Positions 3,705 to 5,439 of a stretch of DNA of 27,681 bases are shown in pieces (the first letter of the stretch is position 1; each line of letters opens with the position of its first letter). The notes under the pieces are model-generated. The model was not told where the DNA came from. It saw only the letters and a list, made by a program, of their open reading frames with translations, and ran no database searches. The DNA comes from a virus: IMG/VR virus record IMGVR_UViG_3300030101_002511, positions 1 to 27,681 of that record; one strand, written 5' to 3'. A program made the translations under genes and the position numbers.

Positions 3705-3869
3705 TTGTTTGAGAAATGTCCATTAAAGCAATTCAAAATGTGTGGTTTCGCTGGATACGATAAGGATCAAGTCCTAAGATGTGGAATAGCAACACCGTTA
3801 AACAAAGTTATACAATTAACTAAATGCCCCCTTTATGAAAAACGCAAATCTAAATATCGTAGATTATAA
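3705..3869 (+). CDS. Cys-rich small phage protein (54 aa)
   Basis: A TTG-initiated frame encodes MFEKCPLKQFKMCG, then YDKDQVLRCG, then LNKVIQLTKCPLYEK. The four cysteines (C5, C13, C26, C41) are spaced as in a recurrent small phage family with the pattern C-P-x-C ... Q-x-x-x-C-G ... L-x-x-C-P, likely binding zinc. It directly follows the Lys-rich gene and overlaps the start of the ParB-like gene by 35 bp. Function unknown. Confidence 0.55.
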   Translation: MFEKCPLKQFKMCGFAGYDKDQVLRCGIATPLNKVIQLTKCPLYEKRKSKYRRL

Positions 3870-4395
3870 AATATTCGATTTGATATTTGCTGAATATAAC
3901 CCCAGGGAATTAACAGAGGATCAGCATCAAGATTTAAAAGATTCAATATCTCGATTTGGTTTTGTTGATCCTTTAATAGTAAATATTAATAAAGAAAGAA
4001 AGAATATATTAGTTGGAGGGCATCAAAGATTAAAGATTGCCAAAGAGCTTGGATATAAAAAGGTGCCTTGCGTTGAGGTAGATCTTACACCAGAAAAAGA
4101 AAAAGAATTAAATGTTAGATTAAATAAAAATACTGGTCAATGGGACTGGGATTCACTAAGCAGTTTTTTTGATAATGAAGAATTATTACAATGGGGTTTT
4201 AACGAAAAAGAATTATCATTAAATATAGAACCAGATTTTAATGAAATAGTTGCAGATGATAAAGATAAAAAACCATCAATTAAAATTACTTTTAAAGATA
4301 TTGAAGAGTTTGAGGAGAATGAAAAACAAATTATTTTATTTTTAAATAAAAATTTTCCTTTTTTAAAATACTCAGTTAGTGCAGGTGAAATATAA
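3835..4395 (+). CDS. ParB/sulfiredoxin-fold nuclease-like protein
   Basis: The 186-residue protein shows the N-terminal ParB domain pattern: YNPRELTEDQHQDLKDSI, then FGFVDPLIVN, the loop VGGHQRLKIAKELGY, and KKVPCVEVDL (residues 22-83). A helical tail includes LNKNTGQWDWDSLSSFF. In phages these proteins usually sit beside DNA methyltransferase or terminase genes and may act as DNA-binding proteins or nucleases rather than in partition. Here the gene runs into the mom-like gene (overlap of a few bases). There is no strong ribosome binding site, and the start lies 35 bp inside the previous gene, suggesting coupled translation. Confidence 0.8.
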   Translation: MKNANLNIVDYKIFDLIFAEYNPRELTEDQHQDLKDSISRFGFVDPLIVNINKERKNILVGGHQRLKIAKELGYKKVPCVEVDLTPEKEKELNVRLNKNTGQWDWDSLSSFFDNEELLQWGFNEKELSLNIEPDFNEIVADDKDKKPSIKITFKDIEEFEENEKQIILFLNKNFPFLKYSVSAGEI

Positions 4396-5066
4396 AACTT
4401 TATAGAGCTACACCGAAGGCAGTAAAATATTCATGTCTTAACTATCATTATTCAAAAAAAACACCTGCAAATAATGGATTACCTTTTGCAGTTTTTAATA
4501 AAAAAAATAAATTTTGTGGATGTATAATTTACAGCTATGGTGCAAATCCTAGAATTGCAAGACCTTATAAATTAATGCAAGGGCAAGTAATTGAATTAGC
4601 AAGAATGGCATTAAATGGAAAGCAAGAATCAACCTCAAAAGCTTTGTCTTTAAGTTTAAAATTATTAAAGAAAAAAGCACCTTTAGTTAAATTAGTTGTA
4701 AGCTATGCCGATAAAGGTCAAAAGCATTTAGGGACAATATATCAAGCAACTAACTGGGTATATGAAAATCAAAGTGAAAGCTCTACAACAGAATATTTTA
4801 TAAGAAATAAATGGATGCATTCAAGATCAGCAAATCAAATAATTAGAAATTATAATTTAGATAGATCAAAAATAAAAAAAAGAAAAGCATCGGGTAAGAT
4901 AAAATATTTATATCCATTAGACAAAAATACAAGAAAAAATATTTCAAAACTTTCAAAACCTTATTTGAAAGACATAAGCGATTCTAGTGTAAGTGGAAGC
5001 ACATTATCTTTCCAAGATAAAAGTGGAGGTTCGATTCCTACCGAATCGCTCAAAAATTATGGATAA
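4392..5066 (+). CDS. mom: Mom-like DNA adenine modification protein
   Basis: The protein resembles phage Mu Mom, a GNAT-fold enzyme that turns adenine into an N6-carbamoylmethyl derivative and blocks many restriction enzymes. Seen here are an N-terminal HYSKKTP...GLPFAVF block, GCIIYSYGANP, VIELARMAL, the signature SYADKGQKHLGTIYQATNW (residues 104-122) and a basic C-terminus KYLYPLDKNTRKN. The conserved N-terminus extends about 60 codons upstream of the first ATG (4575) with no ATG, GTG or TTG available. The only plausible start is ATA at 4392, with AGG at 4383-4385 as ribosome binding site, or a frameshift. Residues 196-224 are translated from a tRNA gene and probably are not part of the original protein. 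Confidence 0.8.
   Translation: MKLYRATPKAVKYSCLNYHYSKKTPANNGLPFAVFNKKNKFCGCIIYSYGANPRIARPYKLMQGQVIELARMALNGKQESTSKALSLSLKLLKKKAPLVKLVVSYADKGQKHLGTIYQATNWVYENQSESSTTEYFIRNKWMHSRSANQIIRNYNLDRSKIKKRKASGKIKYLYPLDKNTRKNISKLSKPYLKDISDSSVSGSTLSFQDKSGGSIPTESLKNYG
4978..5050 (+). tRNA. tRNA-Gly (anticodon UCC), with one bulged base in the T stem
   Basis: All arms can be folded. Acceptor GCGATTC (4978-4984) pairs with GAATCGC (5043-5049). The D arm GTGT/GCAC has loop AAGTGGAA with A14, G18, G19 and A21. Anticodon stem TTATC/GATAA is perfect, with loop TTTCCAA and anticodon TCC at 5011-5013. The T loop is TTCGATT. T stem GGAGG (5025-5029) pairs with CCTACC only if A5040 is bulged; without it the stem is perfect. 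G1-C72, C2-G71, G3-C70, C35, C36 and U73 agree with known tRNA-Gly identity elements. CCA is not encoded. It lies inside the end of the mom frame and 8 bp before terS. Confidence 0.8.
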
Positions 5067-5439
5067 ACCGATTCAAAACGGAAAAAATCGGGATAATAAA
5101 GGGCAGTTTGTAGTAGGAAATACTGCCTCAGTTGGAAAAGGTAGGCCAAAAGGATCTCAATCTATTCCAGATTTATTAAGAAAGATTGGAGAAGAAGAAG
5201 TTCCAACTGAATTAAGCGATAAGGTGAAAGAATTATTCGGCAAGGCTAACATTCAAGAGATTTCAATGATTGAGGCTATAATGAGAACAACAATGATGTA
5301 TGCAATTCAAGGAAAATCCTGGGCAGTTCAATTCATTGCTGAAAGATTAGAAGGAAAAGCAAAAGAACATATCATAACTGAAGAGTTTAAACCGATAAGA
5401 GTTTTAGAATTTGGAGATGATCTGATTGATGAAAGATAA
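5059..5439 (+). CDS. terS: Terminase small subunit (DUF5681-type N-terminus)
   Basis: From ATG 5059 the protein has 126 residues. It begins NGKNRDNKGQFVVGN then GKGRPKGS, the basic DUF5681-like segment common at the start of phage small terminases. A helical part (IQEISMIEAIMRTTMMYAIQ, then WAVQFIAERLEGKA) follows and can serve oligomerisation. It would recognise the packaging site and load the large subunit, encoded immediately downstream with a 1-bp overlap. A longer GTG start at 4993 would translate most of the tRNA and is less likely. The ATG has no clear ribosome binding site. Confidence 0.75.
   Translation: MDKPIQNGKNRDNKGQFVVGNTASVGKGRPKGSQSIPDLLRKIGEEEVPTELSDKVKELFGKANIQEISMIEAIMRTTMMYAIQGKSWAVQFIAERLEGKAKEHIITEEFKPIRVLEFGDDLIDER

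Follow-up and report, generated by a model that had tools for sequence, protein, structure and literature searches.

The tRNA-Gly-like element in the mom frame

The virus record IMGVR_UViG_3300030101_002511 of IMG/VR, analysed here over its positions 1 to 27,681 (termed the window in the following), harbors a tRNA-Gly(UCC)-like gene lying within the 3′ end of a homologue of the phage Mu gene mom. The tRNA-like gene runs on the plus strand from G1 at position 4978 to the discriminator base U73 at position 5050. It is called as tRNA-Gly(tcc) by ARAGORN (4978–5051), is covered by the Rfam tRNA family RF00005 (4978–5049, 39.2 bits versus a cut-off of 29, with the cloverleaf pairs present) and scores 78.9 bits with the family-specific covariance model R1 described below, whose training set includes the window. 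Within the 27.7 kb no other tRNA or Rfam match was obtained by ARAGORN or Rfam. The acceptor stem is formed by residues 4978–4984 and 5043–5049, and the anticodon UCC (5011–5013) follows a retained U33 (5010) in a seven-nucleotide loop. In the T stem, residues 5025–5029 pair with 5037–5042 (GGAGG with CCT(A)CC), leaving A5040 bulged. C74 is genome-encoded at position 5051, the complete CCA end is not encoded. The bacterial synthetase identity set for tRNA-Gly, namely G1-C72, C2-G71, U73, C35 and C36, is complete. The initial annotation, made from the sequence alone, had proposed a tRNA-Gly(UCC) with glycine identity bases and a covariance-model search as its check; both ARAGORN and the above-threshold Rfam score agree with it. 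Scanning the surroundings of the tRNA for promoters and terminators yielded nothing beyond chance, and a megablast search of the window against phage records gave no match.

The enclosing gene (4392–5066, plus strand) is assigned to mom by Pfam PF25680, PHROG 1384, an AlphaFold model and comparison of the start regions. The Pfam Mom profile covers the frame up to residue 191 (1.7e-37, 129.5 bits versus a cut-off of 27.1). The conserved part of Mom stops near position 4976, after which the frame reads across the tRNA to the TAA at 5064–5066, and the translated tRNA, extended by a few bases, supplies the last 29 residues. The nested arrangement beyond the Mom similarity, also part of the initial annotation, is thereby confirmed, and no relatives were encountered that keep these C-terminal residues without tRNA folding potential. 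The solved structure nearest to the AlphaFold model (predicted local distance difference test score, pLDDT, of 89) is phage Mu Mom (PDB code 8bv8; Foldseek E 6e-13, hmmsearch 1.5e-26); beyond Mu Mom, the 50 Foldseek matches listed comprise generic acetyl-CoA GNATs and no tRNA-dependent GNAT. By profile and predicted fold the window Mom belongs to the same family as the Mu methylcarbamoylase, and the same product is predicted for it. The probable mom start is the ATA at 4392–4394, which overlaps the parB stop codon and is replaced by ATG in most of the relatives compared; the next in-frame ATG (4575) would cost conserved residues. Owing to the likely ATA start, expression of the window mom is uncertain.

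Linkage of the element to mom

A first set of 80 IMG/VR loci, whose Mom proteins are 47–63% identical to the query, was collected with the window Mom. In 34 of them ARAGORN places a tRNA, either tRNA-Gly or of undetermined type, next to mom, and it reports no other tRNA gene in any of the 80, while direct reading of the DNA following mom reveals a tRNA-Gly-like sequence in nearly all. The covariance model R1, built from 35 sequences of this set, matches 80 of 81 sources, the window among them; the single miss (L064) is a contig ending inside mom. As R1 had been trained on the first set, another Mom subfamily, about 30% identical to the first and fetched with the L082 protein as query, served as an independent test. 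Here R1 matches 78 of 79 loci at 49–88 bits, the only miss (L185) being cut just past mom. With both subfamilies combined, the tRNA-Gly-like sequence accompanies mom in each of the 158 loci in which it would be visible.

The element lies downstream of mom on the same strand in 107 cases, downstream on the opposite strand in 68 and upstream in seven, at a distance of no more than 100 bases in all but three copies. The mom stop codon falls inside or past the tRNA in 101 of the 107 same-strand cases, and a tRNA inside a coding frame, considered rare in the initial annotation, is thus a recurrent feature of this family. Parsimony on a quickly built Mom tree (167 rows, long branches, L118 wrongly scored as lacking the tRNA) gives at least 23 switches of the strand state, of which at least 15, concerning the opposite-strand group, are required by well-supported branches. 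The linkage has been kept through many strand rearrangements, which argues for a joint function of mom and the tRNA.

As a control, 72 loci (489 kb) were fetched by the terminase genes terS and terL of the window. R1 matches five times, in each case in one of the five loci with mom; four of these match Mom directly, and in the fifth (L110) some 10 bases separate the end of a Mom gene from the tRNA. Among 30 whole contigs checked, Mom occurs only in that of L110, and 27 terminase-chosen whole contigs without Mom gave no R1 match, these whole-contig negatives being weaker than those of the 72 loci since the first-look filter overlooked the L110 copy that cmsearch found. A link of the tRNA to terS or parB instead of mom is ruled out by the loci which contain those genes and no mom. 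A search by the tRNA pattern only yielded 11 loci, nine with mom adjoining.

Adjoining copies are also present in 20 of 54 mom loci on prokaryote genome contigs, from Bacteroidota, Acidobacteriota and other groups. Two independent isolates, Microbacterium phage Appa and Salinibacter phage B2_17, carry the element annotated as tRNA-Gly beside mom; in the Arthrobacter phages BarretLemon and Wyborn it is present beside mom and unannotated. Psychrobacter phage Y8A, reported without tRNA genes (PMC10434257), possesses two tandem D-armless tRNA-Gly-like copies beside mom (L333, 2090–2229), both of them bulged. In Chloroflexota-type mom loci (L268, L269, L273–L275, L281 and L285) the tRNA is located upstream of mom. 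In L328 (8390–8748), obtained by the pattern search, a parB-like frame is directly followed by a tRNA-Gly-like sequence, mom being gone, and L331, a 52 kb virus record lacking any Mom match, contains an orphan R1-type tRNA (2036–2110).

Conserved and altered features of the RNA

In the alignment of 35 sequences, 97.9% of the pair cells are standard, 196 compensatory double changes occur, covariation extends over all four arms and the first three acceptor pairs are invariant; judged by this covariation, the family is a real RNA. Features were counted in 131 distinct copies out of 186 loci, which are related by descent, so the counts do not represent independent events and Fisher tests are indicative only. 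U73 and an NCC anticodon (C35, C36) are found in all 131 copies; the feature parser favoured CC in the anticodon, and alignment A1 shows CC independently. G1-C72 and C2-G71 are likewise present throughout and G3-C70 in 123 copies. C74 is encoded in every copy, the full CCA in few.

Ribosomal features, by contrast, have been lost in many copies. U33 is absent in 63 of the 131 copies and the anticodon loop has eight nucleotides in 52, with either change in 98. By one simple rule, a perfect T stem of four or five pairs with a bulged A is found in 124 copies and a canonical one in four; an A at the position of A5040 is present in 127 copies and in none of 17 host tRNA-Gly. These host tRNAs, from genomes carrying mom, all have U33, a seven-nucleotide loop and a canonical T stem. 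A canonical T stem with a G·A mismatch in place of the bulge was considered and ruled out, as it gives fewer pairs in nearly all copies. An assembly or sequencing error at A5040 is excluded by the bulged A in the nearest relatives L084, L082 and L146. Consequently, of the three explanations offered in the initial annotation for what it called the only defect, decay and assembly error fail and the third, a real bulge, holds. Removal of this base would, as stated there, bring mom into the frame of terS (ATG at 5059), a coincidence given that the nearest relatives keep the bulge.

Taken together, these sequence features argue against use in translation for most relatives. In the window copy, which has U33 and the seven-nucleotide loop, the T-stem bulge alone argues against ribosomal use. 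With A5040, the T stem is altered in the region contacted by EF-Tu, which is one of the characteristics by which non-proteinogenic tRNA-Gly are recognized.

The element as a putative glycine donor for Mom

The Mu Mom product is N-(purin-6-yl)glycinamide, an adenine-glycinamide adduct, according to a reference given in PMC3874153. The donor for this modification has long been open, an acyl-CoA having been assumed by some (PMC7824862). At a 2025 meeting, adenosine hypermodification in Mu was described as dependent on tRNAGly for glycyl transfer (PMC12908700). Glycine identity and the non-proteinogenic tRNAGly of S. aureus, which avoid EF-Tu by T-stem changes, have been reviewed (PMC9976931). A dedicated glycine donor is the best explanation of the element on account of the glycinamide product, the tRNAGly dependence in Mu and the EF-Tu-avoiding S. 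aureus tRNAs. The element is thus very probably a phage-encoded, non-ribosomal tRNA-Gly dedicated to DNA modification, the glycyl form of which would be the donor of Mom. With scarcely less confidence, phages of many bacterial groups can be said to encode such a tRNA-Gly, a cofactor from which a DNA base-modifying enzyme takes its glycine, the family being marked by the bulged A of the T stem and often missed by standard annotation.

We infer that the host glycyl-tRNA synthetase would charge the phage tRNA via G1-C72, C2-G71, U73, C35 and C36, possibly aided by G3-C70. Owing to the bulged T stem, to which many relatives add a missing U33, a larger anticodon loop or a missing D arm, it would be a poor ligand of EF-Tu and the ribosome, and its glycine would thus remain available. 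Mom, encoded next to it and possessing the GNAT fold, could then move the glycyl group from the tRNA onto adenine in phage DNA. Chemically plausible is an attack of the adenine N6 on the glycyl ester, and the glycyl adduct may subsequently undergo a five-membered (Smiles-type) rearrangement to N-(purin-6-yl)glycinamide.

Like the S. aureus tRNAs, the element is an extra tRNA-Gly whose T stem is altered; those are, however, bacterial, donate glycine to the peptidoglycan of the cell wall and contain changed pairs, whereas the window's is phage-encoded, linked to a DNA-modifying enzyme and has a bulged A. The role as dedicated aminoacyl donor is better supported than formal membership in the non-proteinogenic tRNA-Gly class. 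The GNAT toxin TacT shows that this fold can handle Gly-tRNA, through U73 and G71 (PMC9976931), but TacT acetylates the tRNA-borne glycine whereas the proposed Mom reaction would pass it on to DNA.

Several observations weigh against a dedicated donor. No copy adjoins mom in Enterococcus phiEf11 or in 13 other named records (among them D108, Pseudomonas JD024 and Listeria, Proteus, Staphylococcus, Aeromonas and cyanophage records), nor do the Paenibacillus and Yersinia Moms have a neighbouring copy. The tRNA is accordingly not required for every Mom; Mu, whose relative D108 shows no tRNA-like gene beside mom, and other Mu-type and Firmicute Moms without a copy of their own presumably use host tRNA-Gly. 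Furthermore, the T stem is canonical in the copies from Arthrobacter and Microbacterium phages and in that of L110, the window copy retains U33 and the seven-nucleotide loop, its cloverleaf is not the minimum-energy structure when folded as unmodified RNA, and the Mu tRNAGly report is a conference summary and not a paper.

The same retained loop features, together with the UCC anticodon, would suit an ordinary phage tRNA helping to decode glycine codons in an AT-rich genome, the more so as GGA is the commonest glycine codon in the main open reading frames (226 of 487) and tRNA-Gly is common among phages generally. Such a tRNA would share the cloverleaf, anticodon and identity of the element, but not the bulge, the frequent loop changes and the fixed place beside mom. 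The altered loops of 98 and the bulged T stems of 124 of the 131 relatives, the lack of other tRNA genes in the 80 first-set loci and a linkage to mom rather than to phages at large make a role in translation unlikely.

A tRNA-shaped signal whose cleavage sets the 3′ end of the mom mRNA or regulates Mom would account for the stop codons inside or past the tRNA. It is impossible for the opposite-strand copies, about a third of the total, and for the seven upstream ones, and would not need a conserved glycine identity, so that this explanation is very improbable. Little more than a slight chance is likewise left to an RNA acting as substrate, guide or inhibitor of Mom: the adjacency alone would suit any direct partnership, yet both the conserved synthetase identity bases and the reported Mu dependence on tRNAGly would stay unexplained. 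Least likely of all is that the element is a decaying gene, a hitchhiker or what remains of an attachment site, for although tRNA genes are common integration sites and many copies escape ARAGORN (34 of 80 found), covariation is strong, the acceptor, anticodon and discriminator bases are fixed, the losses are specific rather than random and the copies stay beside mom through repeated strand flips.

For the dedicated glycine donor, genome linkage points independently to glycyl-tRNA, in agreement with the Mu conference report, and adds that many phages carry a specialised tRNA of their own. Neither the conserved pairing with mom nor its likely meaning is visible from a single window. A literature search, covering few subscription papers, found no published link between mom and tRNA-Gly genes. 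This tRNA class, missed or mislabelled by gene finders, may flag phages in which the Mom modification is likely, and its natural variants lend themselves to tests of how charged tRNAs are withheld from the ribosome.

Of the neighbouring genes, the small-terminase-like terS (5059–5439, plus strand, DUF5681) starts with its ATG eight bases past U73. It lies outside the conserved mom-tRNA unit, because relatives without mom are also without the tRNA. Directly upstream of mom, a gene with a ParB-N domain (3835–4395, plus strand; Pfam PF02195, 1.4e-8) adjoins mom in nearly all first-set loci as well, and its product is a possible partner of Mom. A ParB-N gene also precedes mom in Enterococcus, Arthrobacter, Microbacterium and Psychrobacter phages and in a Lactobacillus plasmid.
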